Positions 43 through 38,193 of a DNA stretch of 38,778 nt are shown here, piece by piece. Both the position numbers and the translations under genes were made by a program. Each line of letters begins with the position of its first letter. The first letter of the stretch is position 1. Origin of the DNA: Candidatus Hydrogenedentota bacterium (lineage in GTDB: Bacteria > Hydrogenedentota > Hydrogenedentia > Hydrogenedentales > SLHB01). Below the pieces are notes generated by a model that made no database searches, was not told where the DNA came from, and worked only from the letters and a program-made list of their open reading frames with translations. The DNA lies in assembly GCA_019695095.1 (NCBI GenBank), contig JAIBAQ010000040.1:1-38778 (forward strand). The letters run 5' to 3'.

Positions 43-118
43 GAACGGGTAGCTCAGTCGGTAGAGCATCGGACTTTTAATCCGGTGGCCGCGGGTTCGA
101 ATCCCGCCCCGTTCACCA
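43..118 (+). tRNA. tRNA-Lys (anticodon UUU)
   Basis: This is a complete 76-nt cloverleaf. The acceptor stem GAACGGG (43-49) pairs with CCCGTTC (108-114), followed by discriminator A115 and an encoded CCA at 116-118. The D-arm carries TAGCTCAG, the anticodon loop is CTTTTAA with anticodon TTT at 76-78, and the T-arm is GCGGG-TTCGAAT-CCCGC. It decodes AAA and AAG as lysine. A T-rich stretch directly after CCA (119-128) probably serves as its termination signal. The gene converges on the five-gene minus-strand operon, whose last stop codon lies only 23 bp away. No integrase or attachment-site duplication is visible beside it. Confidence 0.97.
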
Positions 119-141
119 TTTCTTTTTGTCGACCGGGGTTG

Positions 142-2262
142 TCAGGGCCAGAAGTAGTCCAGCCGCGCGACTGTCGTGTCCACCAGCAACTGCGCGCCTT
201 CCGGGCTGACGATGAACTTATCCGCGCTGTAGCCGCCGCCGGGAATTGCCTTCGCCGTCGGAAGGTATCCGCCATTCGAATCCGTAAGCTGCACCAAGAA
301 CGTCAGTACGGGTTTGCTGCGCGCTTGGATGCGTATGCCATAGTCCTGGAACAACTCGAACGGATTGGTCGCCATTCCGGCATCGCCGATTCGCAGCACG
401 TGACACACGATCGGATGAACCGAATCCGTCACGTAGAAAGGTTCGCGAGGCGGCTGGATCTCCGGCAAATCGAGTTCGATGAGGTCGTGCTTCAGTACAA
501 TCGCGGACTTGGCATCTTTGTTGGCCGTAGGGAGCGTATCGTCCACGGCGTTCACGATACGGCGCGCGATCTCCTCGCGTCGCGAAATACCGCGCCGCGC
601 AAGCATGGCCTCTTCAGCGGCTTTGCGGAACATCGTATGCGGCGAAACGTCGCCGGCGGCGGAGATCTGCGGCAGAACGAACAAATTGGGATCGTGGCGG
701 CGGTGGAGTTCTTGACGAACATCGTGCCAGAAATCGGCAGAGACTTCCGATAACCCTTCTGTTTCCTGCGCCGGACACGGCACGTTGATAAGCACCCCGG
801 TCAAGGTTTGATCGGGCCTCCAGAAATAGAGGAGTTGGACGGCGGGGTCGGCGCCGCCTTCAAAGCCCATGAAGTCGCCTCGGCGGGTGTCGCCGTACAT
901 CACGGCCGTGCCATCCGCATATTGCGCTCTTCGGTTGATGCCTACGGCGGCGCTGCCCAAAGCCCAGTTCATGCTTGCTGGAGCGCGATTTTGCCAGGCT
1001 TCGGCAATGGCTCCCGCCACCCTGTCAATGAAGAACGCGCGGTACTCTTCCGGCTTCATCGCACCGTCGCTCTCAACCACGTCGTAGAGTCCCTTGAATA
1101 CGCTGCCATCCAGAACAGGCGCGGTGTGGGTATGGGTGGCACTGATTACGATCTTGCGCGTGTCGATATCCGCCGCTCGCGATTTGACGGCTTCGCGGAT
1201 AGCGCCTGCAGTGGCCTTGTCAACCGATACGAGATCGCAAGAGACCAAAACGGCCTGTTCGGATTCGCCGTTGGGACCGCGCGTCTCGATAGCAAGCGCA
1301 GTACTGGTCAGCGGATCGCGTACTTTCGTCGAAATGCGCTTGTTGAGTTGGCCTGCCAGCGACACTGGCTTCTCTGGCGTAATGTCAGCGGTGGCCCAAC
1401 CGACGTAGAGCGGGTCCTCGCGGTTTGCGGATGCGGCGAGTGCGGCAACGTGTTCCTTAAACCACGCGCCGCACGCCTCGATTTGCGGCATGTTGTTCAA
1501 CCAATCCGATTCGTATTCGACCGTGAACAGGCCAGGCGTCAGCCGTAATTCATACACGGCTTTCAAGACTCCGGCGATATCGCCCGCACCTTGCCCCCAA
1601 GGCACGTCGTGCGCGTCGAGCGCCGCCTTGTCGAGGTCCTTCACGTGAAGAGAGAGCAGGCGCTTGCCAAGTAGCCGGACGGCTTCCGCGGGCTTAAGCC
1701 CGGAGCGCAACCAGTGCCCGGTGTCGCCGCACGCGCCGATGCGCGGCCCACGCCCCTCGCACACCTTAAGCACTTCCGCGGGATTCCAATAGCGCGAACT
1801 GCCTTCGGGATGATTGTGAATGGCCAAGTTGACGCCAAACTCGTTGCAGTACTTCTCGATGGTGTCGAGAGCCTCGGGCGCAGGTTCCGAGACGATGAAC
1901 TCCAGTCCGAGTTTGCGCGCAAATTCAAAGGTGCGTTTACACACGCCCTCGTCCGTGGGAATGTTGTGGATGTACATGCTCGTCATCCGGACTTTGGACT
2001 CATCGAGCTTTGCCTTGATCTGCTGGATCATGTCGTCAGGCAGTTCCGCGTTCAAAACGGCGTCCGAATCCGGGCGAACCCGTTGTCCTTCAAACGCCTC
2101 GATATAGGACATGCCCACGGCGGCAGTTTTGTCCACCGCTTCAAAGAAGGTGAACTCCTTGAAGCTCCACGCTGCCGGTCCCACGCGCCAGCCGAACGGT
2201 GATTGTGCATGCGCCGCAGCAGTTGCGACGAGGATTAGTGAAAGAAGGCGTACGTGCTTCAT
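142..2262 (-). CDS. Exported fusion: sugar isomerase-like TIM barrel + ceramidase-like domain
   Basis: The 706-residue product starts with a Sec signal peptide (cut near AHA-QS, residues 19-20). Residues about 22-275 resemble the xylose-isomerase-like/AP-endonuclease-2 TIM barrel, with likely metal ligands E126, H149/H151, D180/H183 in GDTGHW, H206/D209 in LHVKD and E249. Residues about 285-706 resemble the neutral/alkaline ceramidase N-terminal family: ADITPEKP, the ATHTHTAP histidine motif (H377, H379) and GDVSP (537-541), which holds the catalytic serine in true ceramidases. The usual VHxT histidine motif after the INV strand is replaced by a CPAQ-type sequence, so ceramidase activity is doubtful. 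I chose ATG at 2262 because it overlaps the upstream stop codon as ATGA, has GGAAA 5 nt upstream and begins the signal peptide; ATG 2274 in the same frame is the alternative. It is the last gene of the operon. The substrate is unknown. Confidence 0.88.
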   Translation of the reverse strand: MKHVRLLSLILVATAAAHAQSPFGWRVGPAAWSFKEFTFFEAVDKTAAVGMSYIEAFEGQRVRPDSDAVLNAELPDDMIQQIKAKLDESKVRMTSMYIHNIPTDEGVCKRTFEFARKLGLEFIVSEPAPEALDTIEKYCNEFGVNLAIHNHPEGSSRYWNPAEVLKVCEGRGPRIGACGDTGHWLRSGLKPAEAVRLLGKRLLSLHVKDLDKAALDAHDVPWGQGAGDIAGVLKAVYELRLTPGLFTVEYESDWLNNMPQIEACGAWFKEHVAALAASANREDPLYVGWATADITPEKPVSLAGQLNKRISTKVRDPLTSTALAIETRGPNGESEQAVLVSCDLVSVDKATAGAIREAVKSRAADIDTRKIVISATHTHTAPVLDGSVFKGLYDVVESDGAMKPEEYRAFFIDRVAGAIAEAWQNRAPASMNWALGSAAVGINRRAQYADGTAVMYGDTRRGDFMGFEGGADPAVQLLYFWRPDQTLTGVLINVPCPAQETEGLSEVSADFWHDVRQELHRRHDPNLFVLPQISAAGDVSPHTMFRKAAEEAMLARRGISRREEIARRIVNAVDDTLPTANKDAKSAIVLKHDLIELDLPEIQPPREPFYVTDSVHPIVCHVLRIGDAGMATNPFELFQDYGIRIQARSKPVLTFLVQLTDSNGGYLPTAKAIPGGGYSADKFIVSPEGAQLLVDTTVARLDYFWP

Positions 2263-4500: not shown

Positions 4501-5880
4501 CTATCCCTCAATGCGGTAGACGTGCGTCTTTGTCCGCAGTATGAGTGCGTTGCCGTCAACAGCGGGCGACGCCATGAAGCCGTCTTCAAGTTCATTCGTC
4601 GCGACGATTTCCGGAGTCTTGCCCGCCTTGAGAACCGTGGTCTTTCCTTGCGTGCTTGAGAAATAGATGTGGCCATCCGCGAATATCGGCGAAGTCACGT
4701 AGTTGCCGCCCGCCTTCTGCTCCCAGACCTTTGCTCCGGTTGCCGCTTCCAGGCACGTGATCATTCCGCTATTGCTGATCAGGTAGAGAAGGCCGTCGAT
4801 GAAGATCGGCGAAGGTTCCTGCGGAAGAATGGCCGACTCGGCAGTCTTCCACGCGACATGCGTTTCGCTAATGTCGCCATGTCCATCGGGCCGAATCGCC
4901 AACAACTCGCTTTCGCCCCGGCCCGATACCACGAACACGAGTCCGTCGCCATAGACCGGACGTGACGCGGATGTGTAACCGGTCGTGGGTACGTTCCAGA
5001 TTTCCTTGCCCGTGAGCGGTTCGTACGCGAAGGCTGAAGACGAACCGGCGCTTACCAGTTGATACGACAAGCCCACTTTGATTGCCAACGGCGTGCTGAA
5101 CGCCTTGCGATAATCTCCCTCGCGTTTGGGCTTGCCTGTCTCGTCGAGGTCATTCCACTTCGTGGTTCGGTCGGTTCTCCATCGTGTCTCGCCGGTGGTC
5201 TTGTCGAGCGCGGTCAGGTACTGCTGGTCGACTCCATCGAACGTCAATACAAGAAGGTTCTCGAAAATGATGGGCGACGAGCCGGGCCCGCGATAGTGAC
5301 GGCACGGCAGGTCGTTTCGACTCCAAATGGGCTTGCCGGTTGTCGTGTCCAGACACGCGGTTCCGTAGACTCCGAAATGGACGTACACTCGGCCTGCTTC
5401 GATGACGGGAGAAGGCGAAGCGTAGCCGTTGACGCCGTTGCCAAGCGGCTCAGGCTTGTCGCACGTGAAGACCTTCTCGTTGAAACGTATTTCGCCCGTC
5501 TTCGCATCCAGACAGACAGCGAAGAATTCCGTGCCCTCGTCGGTCGCCATGGTCATCCAAACCTGGCCATCAAGTACCACGGGCGTCGACCAGCCCTTCA
5601 GCGGCAGAGCCGTCTTCCACTTTACGTTTTCCGTTTCGCTCCACGATACGGGCAATCCGACTGGCTGCGTGTCTCCCTGCGGGCGAACGTGTCCATCGCC
5701 GAACGGGCCGCGAAATTCCGGCCAGCCGGTTTGTTGTGCCGCTGCAAAGGCAACTTGATCAAGCGCGGTCCACACGCTCGACCGCACGTCGGGAGCCAAA
5801 TGCGCAAATGCAACCGGGACTCCGCTTACGGTACCCGCCGCCATAATCGTCCTTAGAAATGTGCGGCGATCGATGCCCAT
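4501..5880 (-). CDS. PQQ-like beta-propeller protein, Tat-type leader
   Basis: A 459-residue outer-membrane-assembly/quinoprotein-like propeller (PQQ-like repeats). Blade motifs of the form xLDxxTGxxxW recur, for example CLDAKTG, CLDTTTGKPIW, ALDKTTGETRW, AYEPLTGKEIW and CLEAATGAKVW. The N-terminus MGIDRRTFLR followed by a hydrophobic stretch looks like a twin-arginine leader. The product is shorter than PQQ alcohol dehydrogenases and shows no dehydrogenase catalytic motif, so PQQ binding or catalysis is not implied. ATG 5880 has AAGGGA 7 nt upstream. It is closely related to the next upstream gene (5915-7261), with long near-identical blocks through the propeller, so the two arose by duplication. 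It is the second gene of the operon. A binding or scaffold role at the cell surface is one guess. Confidence 0.88.
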   Translation of the reverse strand: MGIDRRTFLRTIMAAGTVSGVPVAFAHLAPDVRSSVWTALDQVAFAAAQQTGWPEFRGPFGDGHVRPQGDTQPVGLPVSWSETENVKWKTALPLKGWSTPVVLDGQVWMTMATDEGTEFFAVCLDAKTGEIRFNEKVFTCDKPEPLGNGVNGYASPSPVIEAGRVYVHFGVYGTACLDTTTGKPIWSRNDLPCRHYRGPGSSPIIFENLLVLTFDGVDQQYLTALDKTTGETRWRTDRTTKWNDLDETGKPKREGDYRKAFSTPLAIKVGLSYQLVSAGSSSAFAYEPLTGKEIWNVPTTGYTSASRPVYGDGLVFVVSGRGESELLAIRPDGHGDISETHVAWKTAESAILPQEPSPIFIDGLLYLISNSGMITCLEAATGAKVWEQKAGGNYVTSPIFADGHIYFSSTQGKTTVLKAGKTPEIVATNELEDGFMASPAVDGNALILRTKTHVYRIEG

Positions 5881-5914
5881 CGTGAATCCCTTTCCGCTCG
5901 CGTGCTCAGTGTGG

Positions 5915-7261
5915 TTAGTTTGGCGTTTCTTCAATTCTGTACACATGGGTCTTGGTCCGCAATATCAGGGCTTTGCCATCTACCGCGGGCGACGCCATGA
6001 ACCCGTTCTCGAGTTCGTTTGTGGCAAGGATTTCAAGCGTTGGTCCTGCCTTGAATACCGTTGTCTTGCCTTGCGTGCTCGAGAAATACAGCTTGCCATC
6101 AGCGTAAATCGGAGAGGACAAGAAGTTTCCGCCGAGATCCTTCGCCCACACTTTGGCGCCAGTCCGTGCTTCCATACAGGTTACCATCCCCTGATTGCTG
6201 CACAGGTACAGCAAACCGTCGATGACGATAGGCGAAGGCTCCAGCGGGATTATGGCTGCCTCGTCGGTCTTCCACGCAATGTGCTTGTTGCTCACGTCGC
6301 CCTGTCCATCCGGACGTATGGCCCACATCTCTACCTGGCCCTGCCCTGTAAATACAAACACCAGCCCGGCTCCGTATGCCGGGCTTGCGGCGGGCGTGAA
6401 TCCTGGCATGGGAACGTTCCAGACAGCTTTGCCGGTCAGGGGTTCGTATGCGTAGGTTGCCTTTGACCCGACGCTAATCAGGAGCGGCTTACCGGCAACG
6501 TCGATGATAATTGGCGAAGTATAGGATTTGCGCCAATCGCCTTCGCGTATGGGCTTGCCTTGCTCGTCCAGGTCATTCCATTCCGTTGTCCGGTCTGTTC
6601 TCCACACGGTTTCTCCCGTGTCTTTATTGAGCGCAGTGAGGTATTGCTGGTCCACGCCGTCAAGCGTCAGGATCAGCAAGTGCTTGAAAAGAATGATAGA
6701 AGATCCCGGCCCCCGAAGGTGACGGCATGGGAGGTCCGTCCGTTTCCACAGAGCTTTCCCTGTCGCCGTGTCCAGGCATGCTGTGCCGTAACTGCCGAAA
6801 TGGACGTATACGCGGCCATGTTCGATAGCTGGGGAAGGAGAGGCGTATCCATTCACTTCGTTGTCAAGGGGTTCGGGGTTGTCGCAGGTAAACACCGTTT
6901 CATCAAAGAGCACGGCGCCTGTATTGGCATCCAGGCAGTTGGCGTGGAATTCCTTGCCGTCCTCGGTGGCCGAAGTCATCCACACCTGGCCGTCCATTAC
7001 CACGGGCGTGGACCATCCCTGGAGTGGCAGTGCCGATTTCCACTTTACATTCTCAGTCTCGCTCCAGTGGAGGGGAAGGCCGATGGTTTTCGTATCTCCC
7101 TCTGCGAGCACATGTCCATCGCCGTATGGGCCGCGAAAGGCCGGCCAGCCAGGCTGCTGGGCGCCTGCAAGTTGGCTCGCGCAGCACACAAGCACCGCAG
7201 ACGCACAGAGCATCTGTACACCCTTTGCCACCAGAAGCACGGATCTTTGTTGTCGTCTCAT
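5915..7261 (-). CDS. PQQ-like beta-propeller protein, Sec-type leader
   Basis: A 448-residue paralogue of the gene at 4501-5880, sharing the FRGP-GDGH start of the mature domain, the SETENVKWK segment, the blade motifs CLDANTG, CLDTATGKALW, ALNKDTGETVW, AYEPLTGKAVW and CMEARTGAKVW, and the C-terminal RTKTHVYRIE. Unlike its paralogue it has a hydrophobic Sec-type leader (residues 1 to about 34, likely cut before QQPGW). Two cysteines in the leader do not form a good lipobox. ATG 7261 is preceded by AGAGGGA about 7 nt upstream. It is the first gene of the operon, divergent from the GH38-like gene, so the operon promoter should lie in 7262-7507. Its function is unknown beyond being an exported propeller. 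Confidence 0.88.
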   Translation of the reverse strand: MRRQQRSVLLVAKGVQMLCASAVLVCCASQLAGAQQPGWPAFRGPYGDGHVLAEGDTKTIGLPLHWSETENVKWKSALPLQGWSTPVVMDGQVWMTSATEDGKEFHANCLDANTGAVLFDETVFTCDNPEPLDNEVNGYASPSPAIEHGRVYVHFGSYGTACLDTATGKALWKRTDLPCRHLRGPGSSIILFKHLLILTLDGVDQQYLTALNKDTGETVWRTDRTTEWNDLDEQGKPIREGDWRKSYTSPIIIDVAGKPLLISVGSKATYAYEPLTGKAVWNVPMPGFTPAASPAYGAGLVFVFTGQGQVEMWAIRPDGQGDVSNKHIAWKTDEAAIIPLEPSPIVIDGLLYLCSNQGMVTCMEARTGAKVWAKDLGGNFLSSPIYADGKLYFSSTQGKTTVFKAGPTLEILATNELENGFMASPAVDGKALILRTKTHVYRIEETPN

Positions 7262-7322
7262 TCCATGTCCCTCTTTAGAAATGAGCATCTCACGGTGCTT
7301 CTGGACGATGCAAATGAAAGCT

Positions 7323-7416
7323 CCTGGCAGCAGGATCCAATGTGCGAGATTCCTGCCAGGGTTTCTATGCAATTTGCTCCACTGGAACTCTCTTTCGTGT
7401 AACTAGACCAGTTCCA
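7323..7416. promoter_or_regulatory. Two inverted repeats in the divergent control region
   Basis: In the 246-bp gap between the divergent operon and the GH38-like gene, CCTGGCAG (7323-7330) is inverted at 7353-7360 and TGGAACT (7383-7389) at 7410-7416. Both are placed where a regulator could act on either direction. The arms are 8 and 7 bp with spacers of 22 and 20 bp, so chance or a mRNA hairpin in the operon leader is possible. No convincing -35/-10 pair was found for the minus-strand operon. Confidence 0.35.
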
Positions 7417-12202: not shown

Positions 12203-14536
12203 TCACTTCTTGATGAGCCAAGCCTCCGAAATGCGCGACATTTGACGCCAATTGATGCCGGGTTCGAAGGGTATGTCGAATGTTATGGTTAGATTTCCCT
12301 CACGGTAGGCACGGCGGGGGACGGGGAATTCCTTAATGTCGCCCACCTCACGGCCGTCCTGTGTGGGAATGAGGCGGACACCGTTCGCGCGCGGAAGGCA
12401 AGAGCTCACGCCTGTCGTCCGAAACACATAATCCGCGTTGGGGTCCAGTCCCATGTAACGCAGTCCGTCGGGCCAGTCCATCTTGCTCATCCACGACTGC
12501 CGCACGCGCCGCTTGCCGCTATCCCACCACATGAAATCGGGGATGGCTGCGCGGTCCGGGTCAAGAAGTGTGTTGGCGGCTTCCGAACGGATAACGTGAT
12601 CGCACTGGGCTACATTGCCGATGTCGTCGTAGAAGCTCCCTGTGCCGGGGTGTTCCCACATGGCAAGTTCACGCAATCGCGCGACTTTGGAAGTCTCATC
12701 AGGCAACGCGCGTACTTTTGCCAACTCGTCTTCAAGCCACCAGCGGTTGTTGAGTGGATAATCCACGTAGTCGAGCACAGCTCCGCGCTCCGCGCCGCTG
12801 GCCTTATACTTCTCCACGCTGGTCTGTAATCCAATCGACTGCCACAATGCTTCGCACAAGTCTACGATTCGTTGCCGCAGCTCGGGCCGGACTGGAGCCG
12901 TATCTACACGGGCTAGCGCGGCCAGCGCCGCGTCAATGGCCTTTTCCGATCCTGCCGTCGAGGCTTCGAGCATTCGGGCATTTGCTTCTTCTTCCAAGCC
13001 CGATTCGTTGATTAGGCGATGCCGCACGTATGTGTCGTAATAGGCGCGAAGCAGGCAGAGTTGCCAACGCCAATTCCCGGAAAGTTGTGGCGACTTCTCT
13101 TCGATTCCCTTCCAAAGGGCAAGAGTAGCATCTACACCGCCGTTATTCGCGAGCGAACCCTCCCAGTTCTTTTCCAAGGCGAAGATGCCGTCTGCAGCGG
13201 TCTCGGCAACATCGGGGCCGAAGAACAATCGAGCGTAGTCGGTCAATATCTCGCGGAGATCGGCCTGCGTGTTCCATCCCAGAGAACTCCACACGACTTT
13301 ATTCACATCGTCGTGAATGCCGTCTGAATACGTCAGAAATCCATTCGTATACGGCGCGAGATTGTTGTGCACAGTGCGATAAAACACGGGTCGCGGATTG
13401 ACCGGCTCTCGGCCCAGAGTGAACGCAAACGCGGGGTCTATCCAGGGCACGGCGTACTGGGCCCGGATGACGTGCGTTATATCCGGATAGTGACGAATCC
13501 CGTACCGTTTATCGAGACGCAAGCGCGTCTCGGAGATGGACGGGCTGGAAGGCCCGGCCACTACGCCACCCAGCCATGTCGGTTTGTGTTCTTCCATCCA
13601 CGCGTAGAACACATCGACCTGCGCATCCGTGAAGCCTTGAAGCGATACCCAGACTTTTGCCTTGGGGTGGTACTTAATCAAGCGTTTGGAGACATCTTCG
13701 AGAAACGGCATAACAAGTTCGGGCGGATTGTCTCCTGGATCGCCGCCGGGAAAGAACACGGCGTCGAGTCTCTTGAATCCCTTATACGCTTCTTCGTGCT
13801 CGTCGAGCGCCTTGGCGCGCAAAGCCGTGTCGTTCAAGTCGAAGCTGGCAGGCGTCCAGATCCAGTAGTCCAGTCCGTACTTGTCGCACGATGCGCTAAC
13901 CGCACGGTCCATGACCTGTCGTGGCGTAGACCCTACCGTCGGCCGCTCGTCTTGTATCGGAATAGTCTCGATGGCATTCGTGCCGAACAGGGCGAGCTCG
14001 CGAATATACTGGTCGTACTGTTCTGGCGTCCACGCGTCGTAGGAATTCGCCGTGGCTCGGTAACCCAGTTGGTGTCCGCGAATCGCATACTCAGGCGATG
14101 CCGACACGTTTATGGGATGTGGCAGATACGCCGTGCCTGGCCGCCACTCCAACTTTCGAAGGAGATACCCGACGCCAAACAGCGCGCCACGCTTGCTCGC
14201 GCCTACGATGCGGACACGGGTGGAGTCCGGTTCCTGAGAAGTCTCAATTCGGTAGGCATCGGATAATTTCGAGACATTGGATTCTACGAGCACCTCAATC
14301 ACGGTTCCATGCGAGGGACGCTTGCCCACGATTTGCCACTTCAATCCGCAACGCTTCTCGACTTCTTCCGAAAGAACCGTGGCCGCCACACGGGCCGCGT
14401 TGCGATTTCCATCGACACACACGGTAGCGGAGCTCAAGTCCAGGTTTTGCGCCGGAGCGGCAACGCACAAAAATGCCGTGGCAATCACTAAGCATATGAG
14501 ACTCGTTAGCTTTGTATTCTGTTGGTACATAGACAC
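12203..14536 (-). CDS. Exported GH20/GH67-like glycosidase-type protein
   Basis: A 777-residue protein with a Sec signal peptide ending near residue 30 (VAAPAQ). Residues about 31-145 look like the small alpha/beta domain found before the catalytic barrel in alpha-glucuronidases (GH67, GH115) and beta-hexosaminidases (GH20): cleavage-product-like VEKRCG, then GALFGVGYLLRKL. A TIM barrel follows (about 150-480), with DYWIWTP, FFPGGDPGD and GGVVAGPSSP segments, and then a helical region. I cannot place it in one family or name catalytic residues with confidence. The GTG start at 14536 is preferred because AGGA lies exactly 7 nt upstream; ATG 14530 would be 13 nt away. It has its own promoter at 14585-14613 and leads the prepilin-type gene. 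Confidence 0.75.
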   Translation of the reverse strand: MSMYQQNTKLTSLICLVIATAFLCVAAPAQNLDLSSATVCVDGNRNAARVAATVLSEEVEKRCGLKWQIVGKRPSHGTVIEVLVESNVSKLSDAYRIETSQEPDSTRVRIVGASKRGALFGVGYLLRKLEWRPGTAYLPHPINVSASPEYAIRGHQLGYRATANSYDAWTPEQYDQYIRELALFGTNAIETIPIQDERPTVGSTPRQVMDRAVSASCDKYGLDYWIWTPASFDLNDTALRAKALDEHEEAYKGFKRLDAVFFPGGDPGDNPPELVMPFLEDVSKRLIKYHPKAKVWVSLQGFTDAQVDVFYAWMEEHKPTWLGGVVAGPSSPSISETRLRLDKRYGIRHYPDITHVIRAQYAVPWIDPAFAFTLGREPVNPRPVFYRTVHNNLAPYTNGFLTYSDGIHDDVNKVVWSSLGWNTQADLREILTDYARLFFGPDVAETAADGIFALEKNWEGSLANNGGVDATLALWKGIEEKSPQLSGNWRWQLCLLRAYYDTYVRHRLINESGLEEEANARMLEASTAGSEKAIDAALAALARVDTAPVRPELRQRIVDLCEALWQSIGLQTSVEKYKASGAERGAVLDYVDYPLNNRWWLEDELAKVRALPDETSKVARLRELAMWEHPGTGSFYDDIGNVAQCDHVIRSEAANTLLDPDRAAIPDFMWWDSGKRRVRQSWMSKMDWPDGLRYMGLDPNADYVFRTTGVSSCLPRANGVRLIPTQDGREVGDIKEFPVPRRAYREGNLTITFDIPFEPGINWRQMSRISEAWLIKK

Positions 14537-14613: not shown

Positions 14614-14757
14614 CGCCGTTGTTGCCAGAATTCGGTTCCTTCCTGGAGCAGGGATTCGATATCATACACGGCGAGGGGGCAAAGAACCGCGCGAGCACGG
14701 GGCGGAAACAGAGACTCCGACTTCTTCTAGTTGGTTTGGGCAATTGGGAAGAGGGCC

Positions 14758-16152
14758 ATGCTCGCATTTCCAAGAGATTTCCTGTGGGGCGCCGCCACAT
14801 CGGCACAGCAAATCGAGGGGGCTGCGCAGGAGGACGGCAGAGGTAAGTCCATTTGGGACGCCTTTGAGCAAACGCCTGGCCGCATCTGGCTCGGGCACAC
14901 GTCTAAGACCGCGTGCGACCATTATCACCGGTATCGCGAAGACATTGACACCATGCGCCGCATGGGACTGCGCGCATATCGCTTCAGTCTGTCGTGGCCG
15001 CGAATTTTCCCGGCAGGCATTGGAAGCGCAAACCAGGCGGGACTGGACTTCTATGATCGACTCGTAGATGCCTTGTGTGAGGCAGGTATTGTGCCTCACG
15101 TCACCCTTTTTCATTGGGACCTTCCGTACGCGCTTCATTGCCGGGGCGGTTGGCTCAACCGGGAAAGTGCCGACTGGTTCGCTTCTTACGCGGAAGCGGC
15201 AGTCGCGCGTCTTTCCGACCGCGTCTCCCACTGGGTAACGTTCAACGAGCCCCAGATTTTCGTCGGAATGGGGTATGAGCGAGGCGAGCATGCGCCTGGT
15301 TTGAAGTTGCCGTTTCCCGAGCTTCTCCGAGTGGGCCATCACGTGCTTTTGGCCCACGGAAAGGCTACGCAGACACTGCGCGCGCGCAGTGCGTCGAAGT
15401 GTTCCGTCGGCCTTGCGCCGCATGCAGTCGTGTGTATTCCTGCCACAGACTCTCCCGAGGACCAGCGTGCGGCGCAAGACAAGATGTTCCGCTTCGAAAA
15501 GAAAACGTGCTGGTCCAACACGTGGTGGCTTGATCCGATCTTCTTCGGCTCCTACCCCGACGACATGCTCTCGCTGTGCGAACGGGACATGCCCGATGGA
15601 TTCGCGCATGACCTTCCAACTATCCATGCGCGCCCCGACTTTTTCGGTGCTAATCTCTATGCGGGAAGTTATGTCCGCGCGGGTGATTCGGTCATGCCCG
15701 AGGATGCGCCGTGGCCGGTGAACATTCCTCTCAACGCCTTCAAGATGGTAGTGACGCCCGAGGCCATGTATTGGGGCGTAAAGTGGTTCTATGAACGCTA
15801 TCGTGCCCCAATCGTGATCACGGAAAACGGCGCGTCCTGCACGGACTGGGTGTCGCTGGATGGTGGCGTTCACGATCCCCAGCGCATCGACTACACGGCC
15901 CGCTACCTGCGCGAACTGGCCCGGGCCATGACCGAGGGAGCCGAAGTGCGCGGGTATTTTCATTGGAGCCTTCTCGACAATTTTGAGTGGTCAGAGGGTT
16001 ACAAAGAACGGCTGGGACTTGTGTACGTCAATTTCGAAACTCAAGAACGTATCTGGAAAGATTCAGCGTACTGGTATCGGCACGTCATAGAGACTAACGG
16101 TGAGTCGATCTTCCAATTGCCAAATAGCATCAAGGGGAGAGAGGATGTATGA
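14758..16152 (+). CDS. GH1 beta-glucosidase-type glycosidase
   Basis: A 464-residue family GH1 retaining beta-glycosidase of normal length. It has the N-terminal FPxxFLWGAATSAQQIEG signature, the acid/base E164 in TFNEP (161-165) and the nucleophile E356 in ITENG (354-358); FEWSEGY near the end shapes the sugar site. There is no signal peptide, so it should hydrolyse imported disaccharides or oligosaccharides in the cytoplasm. ATG 14758 is preceded by GGGAAGAGGG; an upstream TTG at 14731 would only add residues outside the family. Its stop codon overlaps the start of the GH42-like gene as ATGA. The exact sugar (glucoside, galactoside, fucoside or other) is not predictable from the motifs. Confidence 0.96.
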   Translation: MLAFPRDFLWGAATSAQQIEGAAQEDGRGKSIWDAFEQTPGRIWLGHTSKTACDHYHRYREDIDTMRRMGLRAYRFSLSWPRIFPAGIGSANQAGLDFYDRLVDALCEAGIVPHVTLFHWDLPYALHCRGGWLNRESADWFASYAEAAVARLSDRVSHWVTFNEPQIFVGMGYERGEHAPGLKLPFPELLRVGHHVLLAHGKATQTLRARSASKCSVGLAPHAVVCIPATDSPEDQRAAQDKMFRFEKKTCWSNTWWLDPIFFGSYPDDMLSLCERDMPDGFAHDLPTIHARPDFFGANLYAGSYVRAGDSVMPEDAPWPVNIPLNAFKMVVTPEAMYWGVKWFYERYRAPIVITENGASCTDWVSLDGGVHDPQRIDYTARYLRELARAMTEGAEVRGYFHWSLLDNFEWSEGYKERLGLVYVNFETQERIWKDSAYWYRHVIETNGESIFQLPNSIKGREDV

Positions 16153-18362
16153 CGACGAGTTTTGCGGCCATACTCGTTGCTATCCTGAGCGGGGCGCCCA
16201 TCTCGGCGGAACTGAGACCCTACATGGGCAGGCAAACGATTTTCCTGAACGGCAATCCTGAACCCGCGATGATCTATCACCCCACGGGACGGCTCTCGAG
16301 CGAACCCTGGCTGCCTGGGGCGCAAGACCACTTTAAAGACTTCGCCCAAGCAGGATATCGCTTATTTGCCTGCGAGGCCGGACTGGGAGGACTCTGGACT
16401 GAGTCGGGAGTTGACGTCGATTATGTCCGGCGTCAGATTAGGGCAATACGAGACGTACGGGCCGACGCGGCAGTCCTGTTGCGCCTCAACGTCGAGCCCC
16501 CGGGATGGTGGCTGGATAAGCACCCTGAAGACCGAGTCGACTATGCGTTGATTCCTGGCTCCAATATCCCCGAAGAAGCGCGTGCAAAGCCGCAAGACCG
16601 GAAACGAGTCAGTTTCGCATCGCAACGCTGGTTGGATGAGGCGGGCGATCAATTGTCGATACTTTTACGCGGCCTTGCGAATTCTGACGAGGGCAATTCG
16701 CTTTTCGCGGTGCTCATTTGCGGTGGGGAATGGGGGGAGTGGTTCTATCCCGGCTTTGAGTTTGAACCGGATACGGGCGCGGCCATGACCCGTCACTTCC
16801 GTGATTGGCTGTCCGAGCGGTATGGGACGAACGAGGCGCTTCGCGCCGCGTGGAAGGATGCTTCCGCTTCACTTGATAATGCGACGGTCCCTGATCTGAA
16901 CACGCGTTTCCGCACGCACGAGAAGATGTTCCGCGATCCGCAGACCGAACGGCGGGCCATCGACTACTACCAGTGCCACCAGGAACTTGTGGCGAAGGTG
17001 CCGCTTCACTTCTGCCGCATTGTCAAGGAGTCATGGTCTCGCCCGATACTGACGGGCTTATTCCACGCCTACGTCTTACACCTCTCGCATCAGGCATCGG
17101 GCGGTCACCTTGAAGCACGTACAGTCCTCGAATCGCCCTTCGTCGACTTCTTATCGTCTCCCTTCTCCTACGAATTTGATGCGCGTTTTCTGGGAGGGAC
17201 GGGACATTTCCGTTGCCTCATGGCCAGCATCCAGGCCCACGGCAAGCTATGGATCAGTGAGAACGACCATCCGACGCTGTACGGCGATCACTTCTCGCGG
17301 CCCGGACCCTTTGCCCCCGCGAACATTGAAGACTCCATCGCCACCATGCGGCGCAACAACGCCCATTGTTTCACGAATGGAGCAGGCATGTGGTGGTTCG
17401 ATTTTGGACGCGCGGGCGGTAACGGCGACGGAGGTTGGTGGGACCACCCGGATCTGATGCGGGAAGCCAGGGAAGAACTGAAGTTTGCGCGAGCGCTGCA
17501 AGAAAGGCCGCGCCGTTCGGCGGCCGACGTGTTGATTGTGTATGACACCCGCTGCTTCTACTATCTCGCCCCCATGTATCTGGGAGGATACAATCAGTCG
17601 GCCCACTGGGATCGCACGGAGACGTTGTCATTTGAAGCGCTGAATCGCACCGTGGCCGATTCCTACAAGAGCGGGGCCGTGTTCGATCTCGCTTATCTGG
17701 ACGATTTGCCGCTGCTCGATCTGACTCCCTACCGGACCATTGTCTTTGGGTTCACCCCGTACTTGACGGACGCTCACGTGGCTTTCATCAAGGAACGGGT
17801 ATTGACACCCAACCGAACGGTTGTGTGGGTATACGCGCCGGGATACACGGACGGAAACTCGCTCAGCGTGGAACGGGTGAGCGCGATTACCGGGTTCAAC
17901 GTGGAGAAATCGACAGTGAACCTGCCGCCGCAACTCCTCATTCGCGAAAACGTGCTTGCTCCCGGATTTCCCGAGACGCGCATCGACATCACTATTCAGG
18001 ATGCCTGGACCTCGCCGACATTTCAGATCGTCGATCCGCAGAGCGAGACGCTCGGATACTACGGAGGTTCGCGTGAAGTGGCGCTGGCCCGCAAGACAGT
18101 TGCGGGGATCACCGTGTGGTACTCCGCGCTGCCCCTCAAAAATCCGGCGTTGCTGCGTGAGCTATTCCGGCAAGGTGGAGCGCATATCTACAATGACAAG
18201 AACGACGTGTTGCACGCCGATTCCGAGGTGCTCTGGATTCACACCGAAACTGGCGGTCCGCGAAACCTCGTGTTGCCAAATGGTGCGCTCCACACTATTG
18301 TGCTGGAGCCATGGACCACAACCGTACTTGATTCAAAGTCCGGTGAAGTGCTCTTGGATTGA
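16149..18362 (+). CDS. GH42-like (beta-galactosidase-type) protein
   Basis: A 737-residue protein with a Sec-type signal peptide (residues 1-20, cut near ISA-EL). The TIM barrel (about 25-440) resembles GH42 and related clan GH-A families. E194 in GGEWGEW is the likely acid/base and E371 in WISENDH the likely nucleophile. The following region (about 480-680), with DVLIVYDTR and a flavodoxin-like fold pattern, matches the GH42 trimerisation-type domain, and a short beta-rich tail ends the protein. It starts with ATG 16149, overlapping the GH1 stop by 4 bp, with GAGAGG 6 nt upstream, so translation is coupled to GH1. It lacks clear GH42 N-terminal signatures, so it may be a distant or new family in the same clan. 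Confidence 0.78.
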   Translation: MTTSFAAILVAILSGAPISAELRPYMGRQTIFLNGNPEPAMIYHPTGRLSSEPWLPGAQDHFKDFAQAGYRLFACEAGLGGLWTESGVDVDYVRRQIRAIRDVRADAAVLLRLNVEPPGWWLDKHPEDRVDYALIPGSNIPEEARAKPQDRKRVSFASQRWLDEAGDQLSILLRGLANSDEGNSLFAVLICGGEWGEWFYPGFEFEPDTGAAMTRHFRDWLSERYGTNEALRAAWKDASASLDNATVPDLNTRFRTHEKMFRDPQTERRAIDYYQCHQELVAKVPLHFCRIVKESWSRPILTGLFHAYVLHLSHQASGGHLEARTVLESPFVDFLSSPFSYEFDARFLGGTGHFRCLMASIQAHGKLWISENDHPTLYGDHFSRPGPFAPANIEDSIATMRRNNAHCFTNGAGMWWFDFGRAGGNGDGGWWDHPDLMREAREELKFARALQERPRRSAADVLIVYDTRCFYYLAPMYLGGYNQSAHWDRTETLSFEALNRTVADSYKSGAVFDLAYLDDLPLLDLTPYRTIVFGFTPYLTDAHVAFIKERVLTPNRTVVWVYAPGYTDGNSLSVERVSAITGFNVEKSTVNLPPQLLIRENVLAPGFPETRIDITIQDAWTSPTFQIVDPQSETLGYYGGSREVALARKTVAGITVWYSALPLKNPALLRELFRQGGAHIYNDKNDVLHADSEVLWIHTETGGPRNLVLPNGALHTIVLEPWTTTVLDSKSGEVLLD

Positions 18363-18387: not shown

Positions 18388-19839
18388 ATGTTCTTTGCCG
18401 GATGTGCTGTCTTAGTCGTCGGACTTGCCGCCGCTAATACCCCCGAAGCCAGTGTGTCGCAGCTCTTTGTTGACGACATCTGCGTCGCGCGAAAACAGGG
18501 TGTCTTGCGTCGTGCGCATGCATGCAGCAAGCTCAGCGAACCGGTATTGATACCCGAAAAGCCGTGGGAGGGGAACCGGGTATACGTGTACGGTACGGTG
18601 CTGCCGGACGCCGCGACGAATGGGTTCCGCATGTGGTATATGAGCGCAGGGGATACGCTGGCCGGCACCGCGCGCGATCCCAAGCTCGGCGACCAGGCCA
18701 AGAACCATGTGCTCTATGCGACCTCAGCCGACGGTATTCGCTGGGATCGGCCCGAACTGAATCTCTTCTCGTTTGGAGGCAATCCGCACACCAACATCGT
18801 CTTCGACTTTCACAGTCCAAGCATTGTGTTCAATGCGAATCAATCCGATCCCGAGATGCGCTATGTGATGTTCGGGCGTTCCAAAGGGGGCAAGAAGTCC
18901 GGGTATACCACGGCAACCAGCTCAGATGGCCTGCATTGGACGCCGAACCCGAACGAGCCGGTGTTGGATGGTGGCGATACGTGCACGCTCACCCTAGACC
19001 CGAAGACCGGTGAATACTTGGCGTTCTTTAAGAAGTCCCACGACTACCGGGGGTTCAGTAGAAGGCTTGTATATCTCTCCACGAGCAGGGACCTTCAAAC
19101 GTGGAGCGCCCCTGTACTCGTGATGGCTCCAGACGAAATCGACGATGCGCAGACGAAGGCGGAAGATGGCATTTGTTCCCACTTCTACAACATGGCGGCC
19201 TTCCCGTATGGAGGCCAGTATCTTGGGTTCGTCACGCATTTCCGCTACCGCGGCGAGCCCGCGGAAAAAGGCCCCGAGCAGAGCGGGCAGGACGGCCCCA
19301 TCGACGTACAGTTGGTCCATAGCCGTGATGGCCGTGTGTGGAAACGCTGCGAAGACCGCTCGCCGGTCATCCCCAATGGCCCTTACGAGTATGACGCGGG
19401 TTGTATTTTGGGCACTGCAAACATGCCCGTTGCCGTTGGCGACGAGCTCTGGGTCTATTACACCGCAATCAACACCACACACGGCGGCTATACACCGAAG
19501 AAGCGTGTGACCATCGCGCGCGCGGCTTGGCCGCTCGACCGGTTTGTGTCGCTGGATGCAGAGGAAGAGGGAATCGTCGAGACGCACTCGTTCCTGTCGC
19601 CTGGATCTTCGCTGGTTGTCAATGCCGACGCTTCCACGGGTTCGCTTGCCATTGAGGTACTGGATGGCGAAGGAAAGGTCCTGAAAGGCTACGGAGCAAG
19701 CGAGTGTGAAGTGATGAACGAGGATTCGCTCAGGCGCGCAGTCCAGTGGAAAGGCGGCAGCGAATTGCCAAAAGGCGCCGAGATCCGTTTGCGTTTTGTG
19801 CTGAAACACGCCTCACTCTATAGCTATACGATTCGCTGA
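18388..19839 (+). CDS. LFVDD-type five-bladed propeller, GH32/GH43-like
   Basis: A 483-residue protein with a Sec signal peptide (residues 1 to about 18). The mature part begins SQLFVDD and runs through propeller-like repeats: RMWYMS, YATSADGIRWDRP, GYTTATSSDGLHWTP and VHSRDGRVWKR. These recall the five-bladed fold of GH32, GH43 and GH68, but I see no complete Asp/Asp/Glu catalytic set. The C-terminus (about 390-483) is a beta-sandwich with VEVLD-like and SLYSYTIR segments. The same architecture occurs at 36396-38084, so this is a paralogous pair. ATG 18388 has GGGGA 6 nt upstream; the longer open frame beginning at 17956 overlaps the GH42-like gene and is rejected. It follows that gene by 25 bp in the same operon. 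Confidence 0.8.
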   Translation: MFFAGCAVLVVGLAAANTPEASVSQLFVDDICVARKQGVLRRAHACSKLSEPVLIPEKPWEGNRVYVYGTVLPDAATNGFRMWYMSAGDTLAGTARDPKLGDQAKNHVLYATSADGIRWDRPELNLFSFGGNPHTNIVFDFHSPSIVFNANQSDPEMRYVMFGRSKGGKKSGYTTATSSDGLHWTPNPNEPVLDGGDTCTLTLDPKTGEYLAFFKKSHDYRGFSRRLVYLSTSRDLQTWSAPVLVMAPDEIDDAQTKAEDGICSHFYNMAAFPYGGQYLGFVTHFRYRGEPAEKGPEQSGQDGPIDVQLVHSRDGRVWKRCEDRSPVIPNGPYEYDAGCILGTANMPVAVGDELWVYYTAINTTHGGYTPKKRVTIARAAWPLDRFVSLDAEEEGIVETHSFLSPGSSLVVNADASTGSLAIEVLDGEGKVLKGYGASECEVMNEDSLRRAVQWKGGSELPKGAEIRLRFVLKHASLYSYTIR

Positions 19840-19845
19840 CGTCCA

Positions 19846-19891
19846 TTGCGCGATTCGCTTCGCGATTGGCTATGATAGTCGCGAACGTTCG
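19846..19891 (+). promoter_or_regulatory. Possible promoter with adjacent palindrome
   Basis: The 80-bp gap before the gene at 19920 holds TATGAT (19871-19876, 5 of 6 matches to -10) and TTGCGC (19846-19851), but the 19-bp spacer is long. Six bases after the -10 lies a perfect 10-bp palindrome, CGAACGTTCG (19882-19891), well placed for a repressor. The short site could be chance. Confidence 0.3.
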
Positions 19892-19919
19892 ATTTCCAGG
19901 TTGGGGGGGAGTGGAAACC

Positions 19920-22052
19920 ATGCGCAAACATGACTGGACCTTTGCGTCGAATCACGCGCGATTCGACGCTGTTATCTTGACGATGTTGCTAACGCTGACT
20001 GCCGCAACTGGCCTCGCACACGCGGCGGCGCCTACCTTTCAAGAGTTGATGAATCCGGACGTGTTTCCGAATCCGCAGCGCGGCATGCAGGTTGACAGCG
20101 CGACCGTCTCGTCCGATGCCTTGCGCGTCGTGACAACGGGCGCGCAATTCACGCTGAACACCGCCGGTAAGGGTTCCCTCAGGCAACGAATCGGACACGA
20201 ACGGGAAATCGTGCAACTGCAAATAGCAGGGGTGGGCGCGCTTCCGAAGCTGACGCATACAGGCCCTGGCTTCGCGTTTGCCCAGTTCGACACACCTAAG
20301 CTGGATCTTCGCGTCAACGGCGATTCTCTGTTCATGTTTCACGCGCACGAGGCGGTGACGATTGACGTTACTCGCATGATCAACATCGGATTCTATGCGC
20401 CGGATGAATCGAATTGCCTGATTCTCGACGAGTGGGGAGGCTATGGACTGTTTGCCTCGGATCCGAATACCAAGTTCGACGACAACGTATACGGCAGCAA
20501 AATCACGAAGCTGACAATCCCCGCGGACGGCGTGCTGTGGATTGGGATTTGCCCTCCCAAACCCTACGACTGGAAACGCTCCATCACCGACAATGTCGTG
20601 TGGCATTGGTCCAACACGCTCGGCTATCCGAAGGACGACGATCTGATCGCATGGTCACAGGAAGGCAACACGGTCCTGCTGCAATCGGAGGTTATGCTGT
20701 GGAAGGACTGGAATTTAGCCTTCGTGCCGCGCCTCGGCGAAGCGGAATTCGCGCGTGTTCGCAAGACCATGCATGACCACGGCCAGCGGTTCATCGTCTA
20801 TACCAGTCCGTATTACTTCCTGAAGGGTACGCCCATCGAATCGAAGGCCATGAACAGTTTCGATCACTTCGAGCAAACCGGCTTCCCGCCCGGCTGGCCC
20901 GATGGGGTTAATATCGATCTCTTCATGGACGAGATTTCGAAGGTCATGCGCGAGTACAAACCCGATGGACTGTATTTCGATGGCCAATATATGAAGAGCG
21001 TGCCCGCGTTGTATGCGTTGGCTCGCCGGACGCGTGCATTGTTGGGCGAGGATGGCATTCTCGAGTGGCACTCGACCACCGCGCTCGGTCACGGATTCTG
21101 TTATCTGCCGCAGGCGGACGCGTACGTCGATTTCATCTTGCGCGGGGAAGGCCGCGAAGGCAACTACGGGGACTTCGACTATCTCCGGTATTTTGTCTCG
21201 GGTTACAACGCAAGCAACAGCATTGGCGTCATCTGCAACAACAATTCCAAACCCACCCCGGAACTGATGAAGAAGCTACTGCAAGTCAATGCGCGCATGC
21301 ACACTATAGCCGGGTGGTTGGCAGAGCCTGCCGTGATGGATGTCGTTCACAAGGACTATCAAGCCCATTTGACAGACGCATTGCAGGCCGCCGTTGACAA
21401 AGGCGTCGATGATCGTCAGGCACAGGTAGCCGCGAAAAGCGAAGCGCGGTCGGCCGAGTTGAATGCCTTGCTTGCCGCCCCTGCGTGGGGAGAAGCAAGA
21501 CTCGTTGCGAAGGCAGACGATCTGCTGAAGTGGACTCCAAGCGTCTCACCCCTGAACTCAAATGCTTTTGCAGCGAGAGATGGCGTTCTGGCGATCACCG
21601 CCAAGGCAAGCACCTATGCATTCCTTACTCATCCACTGACCGCGCCGGCGCACGGTTTTGTGTTCAGAATGAAGCAGGGTACGGACGGTGGCATGTCGTG
21701 GGGACCGGCCGTCGCATTGCGTTGGCCTTCCGGCGCATTCTTCCGCGTGGGGCTTCGAAGTGACGGAAGCTTGCAGTCGGACCTCAACGGCGAACAACAA
21801 TTGTTCGGCAAGCACGATCCATCCCAATGGGTTTGGGTGCGCGTGCGCTGGCTCGAGCAGTCGGGAGTTGTCGAATCCAGCACCGATGGCGCCAAGTTCG
21901 AACGCGTGTGGACCTTCTCGCACAAGGGCATGTTCCTCGCTGAAGCGCCAAGTATTCTCGTCGGCAAAGTGTCGTACAACTGTACCGAGGTCGACCATTC
22001 CGACGTGGGCAGTGAAGGGGTCTGCTACGTGGACGAAGTCCGCGTGTTCTGA
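19920..22052 (+). CDS. Exported TIM-barrel glycosidase-like protein, unclassified
   Basis: A 710-residue protein with an N-terminal hydrophobic export signal ending near AHA-AAP (residues 35-37). Residues about 40-215 are a beta-sandwich. The region about 220-490 looks like a TIM barrel: FIVYTSPYYF, then GLYFDGQ with D354 placed like the nucleophile Asp of alpha-galactosidase-type barrels (clan GH-D/GH36-like), then LEWHSTT and a long DAYVDFILRGEG segment. Residues about 535-710 resemble a concanavalin-like lectin domain, with VFRMKQG, ALRWPSG and YVDEVRVF. I do not recognise a defined family. ATG 19920 is preceded by a GGGGGGAG stretch; the longer frame from 19866 adds only non-conserved residues. 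It may be the last gene of the GH1 operon or have its own promoter. Confidence 0.75.
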   Translation: MRKHDWTFASNHARFDAVILTMLLTLTAATGLAHAAAPTFQELMNPDVFPNPQRGMQVDSATVSSDALRVVTTGAQFTLNTAGKGSLRQRIGHEREIVQLQIAGVGALPKLTHTGPGFAFAQFDTPKLDLRVNGDSLFMFHAHEAVTIDVTRMINIGFYAPDESNCLILDEWGGYGLFASDPNTKFDDNVYGSKITKLTIPADGVLWIGICPPKPYDWKRSITDNVVWHWSNTLGYPKDDDLIAWSQEGNTVLLQSEVMLWKDWNLAFVPRLGEAEFARVRKTMHDHGQRFIVYTSPYYFLKGTPIESKAMNSFDHFEQTGFPPGWPDGVNIDLFMDEISKVMREYKPDGLYFDGQYMKSVPALYALARRTRALLGEDGILEWHSTTALGHGFCYLPQADAYVDFILRGEGREGNYGDFDYLRYFVSGYNASNSIGVICNNNSKPTPELMKKLLQVNARMHTIAGWLAEPAVMDVVHKDYQAHLTDALQAAVDKGVDDRQAQVAAKSEARSAELNALLAAPAWGEARLVAKADDLLKWTPSVSPLNSNAFAARDGVLAITAKASTYAFLTHPLTAPAHGFVFRMKQGTDGGMSWGPAVALRWPSGAFFRVGLRSDGSLQSDLNGEQQLFGKHDPSQWVWVRVRWLEQSGVVESSTDGAKFERVWTFSHKGMFLAEAPSILVGKVSYNCTEVDHSDVGSEGVCYVDEVRVF

Positions 22053-35504: not shown

Positions 35505-36335
35505 TCAGTATGGTGCCTCAAGCTGTTCAAAATTCAGCGCGTTGAAGTCATATAGGACTTTCACGTGGCACAGGCCATTGGCGTCAAGCTGTCCGGAGTA
35601 CAACTTCCCGCTTTCGGCCCATACGAGCCGCTGTCCATCCACTTCTGCCCATTCCCATGTCGGACACTCGATAACTACGCCGGTACGCCCATTTTGGAGC
35701 ACATGTTCGTCGAAATAGCAGCCCTGCCCCTTCTGCTGGGGTAGCGTTTCATGCGCGATTTTGTTGATGGTCCATTCTTCGTTGATCCTCTTCTCAAAGA
35801 GCATGAATGTGTTCCATTTCGCTTCGCGCTTATGCGGCAACTCGGACCAACCGTCACGGATCAATCGTGGATAGTACACGCTGGTACACTCGGAGCCGTA
35901 ACGGACGGGCCACGGATACTCGGTGCTGCATTTGAGGCCAGAGTCATCACGTAACGGAACGTTGGAACAACCGCCATTCAGCCAATAACTAGAATTCGAC
36001 AAGAACATTCCGCCGCCCAACCAGCAATCGCCCTTGGGCCAAAGCGTGAGTGCTTTCAGGTAGGGAGCACGGGATATGCCCGTCCACGATCCTTGCGTCT
36101 CGGAATCCCAATGGCCGTTCATGGCGAAATAGATGAGGTGCTTGCCATCCGGCGAAAGGTCGCACCGTCGTTCGTAAATGCGGCCGTTCATCCACTGGCC
36201 GACCAGAAATTCGTCGCTGCTGCGGTCCCAACCAATCACAGCAACCTTCTTCGATGGACCTCTGCGCACGACAACGGCGTACGGAGCGTCGCGCGCCATC
36301 AACACGTGCAGTCTCGCAGGGAATTGCTCAGCCAT
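35505..36335 (-). CDS. Uncharacterised protein, possible PD40-like propeller
   Basis: A 276-residue protein that I cannot assign to a known enzyme family. One segment, DLSPDGKHLIYF (about 60-72), matches the TolB/PD40 type propeller motif, and the rest is rich in aromatic beta-strand-like sequence and cysteines. There is no signal peptide or membrane helix. ATG 36335 is preferred (GAAGG 5 nt upstream); GTG 36341 in the same frame would add two residues. It lies 60 bp downstream of the LFVDD propeller gene on the same strand and may be cotranscribed with it. The terminator at 35461-35496 is oriented for the opposite strand. Confidence 0.72.
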   Translation of the reverse strand: MAEQFPARLHVLMARDAPYAVVVRRGPSKKVAVIGWDRSSDEFLVGQWMNGRIYERRCDLSPDGKHLIYFAMNGHWDSETQGSWTGISRAPYLKALTLWPKGDCWLGGGMFLSNSSYWLNGGCSNVPLRDDSGLKCSTEYPWPVRYGSECTSVYYPRLIRDGWSELPHKREAKWNTFMLFEKRINEEWTINKIAHETLPQQKGQGCYFDEHVLQNGRTGVVIECPTWEWAEVDGQRLVWAESGKLYSGQLDANGLCHVKVLYDFNALNFEQLEAPY

Positions 36336-36395
36336 TCCCACCTTCGATTCTCAACCTAGCAACTTGGATTTCTCAGTGAACCGATAAACTTCGCA

Positions 36396-38084: not shown

Positions 38085-38107
38085 GGTATCGGTCGACTCC
38101 CAGATTT

Positions 38108-38123
38108 CGAGTCCGAGGACTCG
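38108..38123. promoter_or_regulatory. 16-bp palindrome upstream of the LFVDD propeller gene
   Basis: CGAGTCC (38108-38114), a 2-bp spacer and GGACTCG (38117-38123) form a perfect inverted repeat 24 bp before the ATG at 38084. It could be an operator or a leader hairpin that lowers translation. Confidence 0.4.
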
Positions 38124-38176
38124 GTCCCCCCAAATGCCGCCCCACCCCGGCGCGGTCTTCGTAACGTGGACTACAG

Positions 38177-38193
38177 AATGCCGATTCGGCATT
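38177..38193. promoter_or_regulatory. 17-bp palindrome, candidate operator
   Basis: AATGCCGA (38177-38184), a single T and TCGGCATT (38186-38193) form a perfect inverted repeat about 93 bp upstream of ATG 38084. A half-site-like AAATGCCG occurs nearby at about 38131-38138. The position and symmetry suggest a transcription factor site for the propeller gene, but no regulator is in the window. Confidence 0.45.

Follow-up and report, generated by a model that had tools for sequence, protein, structure and literature searches.

A widespread family of predicted five-bladed propeller proteins, nameless in Pfam and NCBIfam, as probable glycan-degrading enzymes of Hydrogenedentota

Introduction

The described proteins that lie closest to the family treated here fall into several groups: the GH130 enzymes, the GH32 fructosidases, the GH43 and GH62 arabinofuranosidases and xylosidases, the GH137 module of BT0996, and the GalNAc deacetylase of Flavonifractor plautii (6n1a). 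In the GH130 family, Asp142 of BT3780 is invariant and carboxylates have a role in the hydrolases (PMC4599007), and BT0996 combines two enzymes of RG-II breakdown, a GH2 beta-glucuronidase and a GH137 beta-L-arabinofuranosidase (PMC9843283).

The window, by which we mean the whole stretch of 38,778 nucleotides that was analyzed (contig JAIBAQ010000040.1 of a Candidatus Hydrogenedentota bacterium), encodes two proteins, P0001 and P0002, of what we call the LFVDD family. We consider them likely to represent a new enzyme family that is secreted and degrades glycans in an exo-acting manner, most probably by inverting glycoside hydrolysis, on a scaffold that pairs the propeller of GH32, GH43, GH62, GH130, and GH137 with an accessory sandwich, a reading to which we give a probability of roughly 0.58. 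The fold and the family are computed and the function is what we infer, the support for an enzyme coming from fold matches, profile matches, conserved columns, fusions to glycosidase-like modules, and glycosidase neighbors. We know of no activity for any member of the family.

Genes and Shared Sequence

The two genes and their parts are as follows.

18388–19839, plus strand: P0001, an LFVDD propeller protein of 483 amino acids (ATG start at 18388, intact reading frame)
18463–18477, plus strand: LFVDD motif of P0001, residues 26–30 (D29 in 63 of 65 aligned rows)
18463–19536, plus strand: predicted five-bladed propeller of P0001, approximately residues 26–383 (AlphaFold2 model; fold matches span 25–390)
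19537–19836, plus strand: predicted C-terminal sandwich of P0001, residues 384–483 (own model pLDDT 93.3, pTM 0.85)
36396–38204, minus strand: P0002, the second LFVDD propeller protein, 602 amino acids from the TTG at 38204 or 562 from the in-frame ATG at 38084
36399–36803, minus strand: C-terminal sandwich of P0002 (36% identity with the P0001 sandwich)

A purine-rich stretch precedes the ATG of P0001, the N-terminus of which, judged by eye, resembles a signal peptide; by the same kind of inspection both proteins look secreted. The earlier note had placed the second gene at 36396–38084, and the gene is real, with the ATG at 38084 in frame, but its strand had been left unstated: the plus-strand reading of the region is interrupted by stops, and it is the minus strand that is open. 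On that strand, 54 bases downstream of P0002, lies a gene for a 278-residue protein that matches no Pfam model at E 0.001 (35505–36341).

The LFVDD motif occupies residues 127–131 in P0002, MWYM begins at residue 82 in P0001 and 194 in P0002, and DGxxW recurs at 115, 180, and 314 in the former and at 211, 274, and 399 in the latter. BLASTP aligns the two proteins over 494 columns at 29% identity (E 1e-38, 135 bits), and the alignment continues across the C-terminal region as far as the final strand. Without composition adjustment the score is 134 bits for the pair, 66.2 for the isolated C-terminal part of P0001, and 80.5 for its isolated propeller, against a maximum of 30 bits among 200 shuffles of P0001 compared with P0002. 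The computation shows P0001 and P0002 to be of common ancestry and to form one family, and with an E-value of 1e-38, far above the 200 shuffles, it bears out the LFVDD start, the MWYM and DGxxW repeats, and the matching C-terminal sandwich that had been noticed in both genes.

Spread, Genomic Setting, and Fusions

The two copies counted in the window by the earlier note are both real, but that count understates the family, since the host genome alone holds 13 matching pieces that make up about 11 genes, and a profile search finds at least 12 matches there; among the other propeller families of the same genome, GH43 has 8 matches, GH32 has 2, and GH130 has 2. With P0001 as the query, the family is present in 36 of 40 genomes, the host genome included, and with a profile of 45 members it is present in 62 of 68 searched genomes of the host phylum, the matches across which, with up to 23 candidates scored per genome, come by hand sum to at least about 396. 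The family occurs in many copies per genome within one little-studied bacterial group. Beyond the host phylum, members turned up in one Opitutus, one Aminicenantes, and two acidobacterial genomes, and among plasmid records in one hypothetical protein of Isosphaeraceae bacterium EP7. The Opitutus contig (SIBG01000018.1; L009:2-13441) carries a head-to-tail array of nine LFVDD propeller genes spanning 13.4 kb, of which the first and the last are truncated by the locus ends. The window itself holds, at 4501–7372 on the minus strand, two adjacent genes for PQQ_2-type propellers that have the appearance of a tandem duplication.

Viral contigs searched with P0001 gave no match. Five propellers on IMG/VR contigs (L042–L046), found with alignment A2 and considered as phage members, score 41–103 bits in the family profile against at least 288 for the scored members, and they are therefore remote propellers rather than LFVDD proteins; they carry SxDGxxW-type repeats. 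Literature searches, judged at listing level (titles and abstract starts), yielded nothing on the family.

Around P0001 lie three further genes.

14731–16152, plus strand: GH1 gene, first of four same-strand genes (PF00232, E 1.7e-145)
16149–18362, plus strand: 737-residue protein, weakly GH42-like (PF02449, 16.1 bits, below the cut-off of 21)
19866–22052, plus strand: 728-residue protein without a Pfam match at E 0.5, starting 26 bases after P0001

P0001 is the third gene of this run, in which the gaps are −4, 25, and 26 bases, the 737-residue gene overlapping the GH1 stop by 4 bases and ending 25 bases ahead of P0001. The window also encodes a GH38, a GH78, a sulfatase, and a BNR protein. 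A 777-residue protein at 12203–14536 on the minus strand shows only a weak match of the GH20 domain-2 kind (E 0.03, below cut-off). The nearest relatives of P0001 are 55–61% identical to it; one of them (genome G004) is adjoined by GH106, GH78, and an MFS transporter, a second (G038) by GH20, a GH123-like protein, and a sugar transporter, and the third (G014), on a short contig, by an HPPK protein and one matchless protein, with no glycosidase. Between the GH78 proteins of G004 and the window the identity is 60%. Since the host genome (G000) and G004 each contain 13 GH78-type matches, a chance neighborhood is possible, though it seems unlikely; the neighborhoods were read at few loci, without a background count, in a host genome rich in glycosidases.

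For fusions, 12 regions were fetched, nine of them chosen for a frame of more than 900 amino acids. In four genomes the propeller is fused to a module of about 520 residues (L166:3453-6566, L167:3804-6875, L168:3276-6302, and L169:3260-6265, all on the minus strand), and in L166, the one of the four that was scanned, this module is GHL10 (34.9 bits against a Pfam cut-off of 27.9). Another LFVDD gene adjoins the fusion in L166 and L167. In L163 the propeller is joined to CBM9 and a GH123-like part, the stretch upstream of the propeller also reading like non-coding sequence, and in L165:4108-7419 (minus strand) a BNR_2 sialidase-like propeller and a laminin G domain stand in front of the LFVDD propeller in one frame, which thus contains two unlike propellers. 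L164 has an additional N-terminal part, L171 has two propellers in one frame, and the long frame of L170 may be merely an open upstream frame.

Predicted Fold and Standing against Named Families

The AlphaFold2 model of the whole of P0001, built from 13 sequences, consists of a five-bladed propeller and a separate sandwich (mean pLDDT 81.2, pTM 0.82), with weak loops at 90–103, 220–223, and 291–300. The earlier impression of a fold recalling GH32 and GH43 agrees with this prediction and with the fold search, in that the propeller is of the GH32, GH43, and GH130 kind. The top Foldseek rows are BT_0996 (6.8e-11), GH130 7fip (7.2e-11), the GalNAc deacetylase 6n1a (2.1e-10), and GH32 structures from 3.7e-10, and the VIA Z-scores are 25.4 for GH130 9gph, 25.3 for 6n1a, 25.1 for 5mt2, and 23.5 for GH159 7zei; values from 25.4 to 25.0 among the best fold matches are ties. 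The GH43, GH62, and GH32 structures rank after GH130, the GH137 module of BT0996, and 6n1a in the fold search, and all of these nearest folds are remote. The top matches include a deacetylase and phosphorylases besides hydrolases. Searched against PDB sequences with HMMER, a profile of the 45 relatives matches 6n1a best (4.2e-11), followed by 7fip (2.6e-9) and an invertase (9.5e-8). The best matches of the P0001 sandwich alone are CBM6 and CBM36 modules, with Z of 8.0 to 7.5.

Neither P0001 nor P0002 rises above any Pfam or NCBIfam cut-off. The one Pfam match of P0001, to the BT_1020-like propeller PF24067, has an E-value of 0.023 and is below cut-off, and a search for the PF24067 family found it in 5 of 20 genomes and not in the host genome. 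Among the 45 members, searched against Pfam at E 0.1, PF24067 appears in 7, PF00251 in 6 (best 1.3e-4), and PF04041 in 1. Membership in GH32 was rejected, there being no PF00251 match of P0001 or P0002 at E 1, as was membership in GH43, with no PF04616 match for the two proteins at E 1 and none among the 45 relatives at E 0.1.

The LFVDD members that were scored reach at least 288 bits in the family profile, against at most 60 for the GH130, GH43, and GH32 loci among the matches listed, except for L131, a frame of which scores 161 bits over profile positions 236–476 beside a GH43-like match and looks like a true member. When the family was aligned with the named ones by hhalign, GH32 gave a probability of 95.3% (E 2.3e-8, over blades I–III), GH130 gave 0.7%, and GH43 gave 0.5%, with no usable alignment in which to place its Asp, Asp, Glu triad, the loci that gave a row numbering 13 of 25 for GH130, 11 of 25 for GH43, and 19 of 25 for GH32. 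The family-profile scores, the hhalign link to GH32, and the HMMER link to GH130 structures argue together for a separate family within the same superfamily.

A GH130-type glycoside phosphorylase or mannosidase, in which phosphate would be bound by conserved arginines, has to be weighed here. GH130 enzymes head the fold list (Z 25.4), 14 of the 45 members weakly match the NCBIfam model for beta-1,2-mannobiose phosphorylase at E 0.1 (best 9.5e-7), and R226 and R320 are conserved, but P0001 and P0002 have no PF04041 match at E 1, P0001 scores 20.4 bits in NF052550 against a cut-off of 450, P0001 has Ser in the column of the invariant Asp, where only 6 of 65 rows have Asp, and the hhalign probability is that given above. 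Phosphorolysis is, moreover, unusual for secreted proteins, and the proteins of the window look secreted by eye. Direct membership of P0001 and P0002 in GH130 was rejected, and we regard the reading as a whole as very improbable.

The LFVDD family is thus nameless in Pfam and NCBIfam, and widespread. The new family proposed in the earlier note, to which membership in a characterized CAZy family would be fatal, shows no such membership by the Pfam and NCBIfam models, the two libraries compared; a listing in CAZy is possible.

Conserved Columns and Candidate Active Site

Conservation was read from a 65-row alignment, which leaves out the duplicate of P0001 in L001 and the partial copies L009_+1_0, L009_+1_3552, and L028_-, and which keeps 18 of 29 later matches, those that were short or shared the test stretch with a kept row having been dropped. 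Two of its columns are of particular concern.

18976–18978, plus strand: D197, in the column that pairs with the aspartate of the GH32 RDP motif (62 of 65 rows have Asp here)
19180–19182, plus strand: H265, candidate acid or binding residue (column Q, H, E, or D in 64 of 65 rows)

The match of D197 to the RDP Asp undergoes small shifts between alignments, and the three rows that lack it are L010–L012. D29, R226, and R320 are kept in 63 rows each, Y84 in 62, Y68 in 55, and Y267 in 58 (His in the other 7); column 61 is Glu in 56 and Asp in 5, and column 335 is aromatic in all 65, with D336 in 43. Y68 is adjacent to the GH32/GH43 base column. The column of the GH32 nucleophile (the NDPNG Asp of blade I), placed by alignment only, is column 66, where P0001 has Tyr, P0002 has Val, and the 65 rows have Glu in 13 and Asp in none. 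The acid/base Glu of the GH32 EC motif may correspond, in an approximate blade register, to column 265, which is His in P0001 and Glu in P0002 and acidic in 25 rows; overall it holds Q in 22, H in 17, E in 15, D in 10, and P in 1, with at least 10 changes on the tree. The statement that no complete catalytic triad is visible is, by alignment, right for the two proteins of the window, but for the family it needs amending, with the RDP Asp column kept in 62 of 65 rows and a subfamily of 12 rows that has Glu in both other candidate positions.

That subfamily combines E66, D197, E265, and D336. In 16 rows besides P0001, H142, D197, and H265 occur together, 12 of these rows having C66, and five rows have Y66, D265, and D336; P0001 has Y66, H265, and D336, and its three nearest relatives have Y66, Q265, and D336. 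Covariation on the tree could be demonstrated neither for columns 66 and 265 nor for columns 142 and 265, the independent pairs, 5 and 2, being too few. Active sites that differ by subfamily would be the best reading of these sets. That column 265 stays polar in 64 of 65 rows despite at least 10 changes argues for a working pocket in which chemistry or specificity has shifted, and the replacement of H265 by Gln within the group of P0001 argues against H265 being essential there.

The same columns bear on a non-catalytic alternative, in which the GH32/GH43 base would have been lost and the protein would act as a lectin at the surface or in the periplasm, the sandwich giving it a second binding module. 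It would suit the non-acidic column 66 of 52 rows and the Gln of 22 rows in column 265, and fusions to GHL10-like, GH123-like, and BNR_2 modules would fit a binding module too. Against it stand the retention of D197, R226, and R320 in 62–63 of 65 rows, which come from several phyla, the 12-row subfamily with Glu at both 66 and 265, and the case of GH130, in which the same fold is catalytic without a classical acid (PMC4599007). A lectin appears to us unlikely on balance.

A metal-dependent sugar deacetylase or other carbohydrate esterase like 6n1a, with H142, D197, and H265 as ligands in some subfamilies, is improbable. It would account for 6n1a being the best PDB profile match and tying for the best fold match (Z 25.3, model 44..480), and for the joint occurrence of the three residues in P0001 and the 16 other rows, but the nearest relatives of P0001 have Gln in place of H265. 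Moreover, two of the residues that we take to be the metal ligands and base of 6n1a (E64, H97, D100, and H252), namely D100 and H252, align with S143 and Y267 of P0001 (HMMER, numbering by eye).

It is possible, if unlikely, that the LFVDD proteins are an unlisted enzyme family radiated inside one phylum, D197 and the two arginines being kept while the other active-site positions were swapped (E66 with E265; C66 with H142 and H265; Y66 with D, Q, or H at 265), so that members would catalyze by different means, for example by plain hydrolysis in one subfamily and by metal-dependent or tyrosine-assisted chemistry in another.

Under the preferred reading of secreted glycan hydrolases, the end of the sugar would enter the central funnel, where D197 could set a pKa or steady the transition state, column 265 could aid acid catalysis or binding in a manner that differs between subfamilies cutting different linkages, and D336 together with the aromatic residue 335 could hold the −1 sugar, the sandwich steadying the propeller or binding polymer. 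E61 and D336 are acidic candidates for the base in P0001. These funnel assignments would follow from alignment columns rather than geometry. The neighboring GH1, GH42-like, and GH78 genes suggest as substrate a side chain of a heteroglycan, perhaps with rhamnose, which is the weakest step of the proposal. Against an enzyme speaks column 66, where neither P0001 nor P0002 has an acidic residue and only 13 of 65 rows do, and a catalytic residue would hardly be expected to vary within an orthologous group as H265 does, with Gln in its place in the three nearest relatives of P0001.

With about 11 genes, the family is about as numerous in its host genome as GH43, GH32, and GH130, and neither Pfam nor NCBIfam names it. 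Should the family prove catalytic, a considerable part of what these bacteria can do in breaking down glycans has been overlooked, and its subfamilies would form a ready-made series in which to test how the active site of a propeller is remodeled.

Comparison with Known Systems

The P0001 sandwich superposes on the CBM6, CBM35, and CBM36 jelly rolls with Z of 6.7–8.0 over about 87–91 residues, but there is no sequence match, no CBM model of these families being found for 12 members at E 1; it may be weakly CBM6/35/36-like, although a Z of 8.0 may reflect a common arrangement only. The GH43 and GH62 arabinofuranosidases and xylosidases share the five-bladed propeller (Z approximately 21–23), whereas the PF04616 search and the hhalign probability of 0.5% set GH43 apart. 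With the GH32 fructosidases the family shares the Asp of the RDP motif, retained as D197 by 62 of 65 rows, but the nucleophile column is non-acidic in P0001 and P0002. The deacetylase 6n1a is the best profile match, with a fold match range that runs up to model residue 480, but the residues taken to be its metal ligands appear not to be conserved in the aligned LFVDD columns. The GH137 module of BT0996 (5mui, 5mt2) comes first in Foldseek (Z 25.1), yet the identity in fold alignments is 14–16%, the comparison being by fold only. The GH130 mannoside phosphorylases and mannosidases (9gph, 7fip, BT3780) differ in their invariant Asp column, where P0001 has S143 and 6 of 65 rows have Asp (the EDPR stretch of 7fip aligning near columns 142–145 by HMMER, in a register set by eye on the following strand), and in the extra C-terminal sandwich of the LFVDD proteins, and P0001 and P0002 have no Pfam or NCBIfam membership; what the two have in common is the five-bladed propeller, the SxDxxxW blade motifs, and, in the 7fip alignment, a W-E stretch ahead of blade I. 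Relative to Pfam and NCBIfam, the LFVDD proteins are new at the level of the family, within a fold superfamily that is known.
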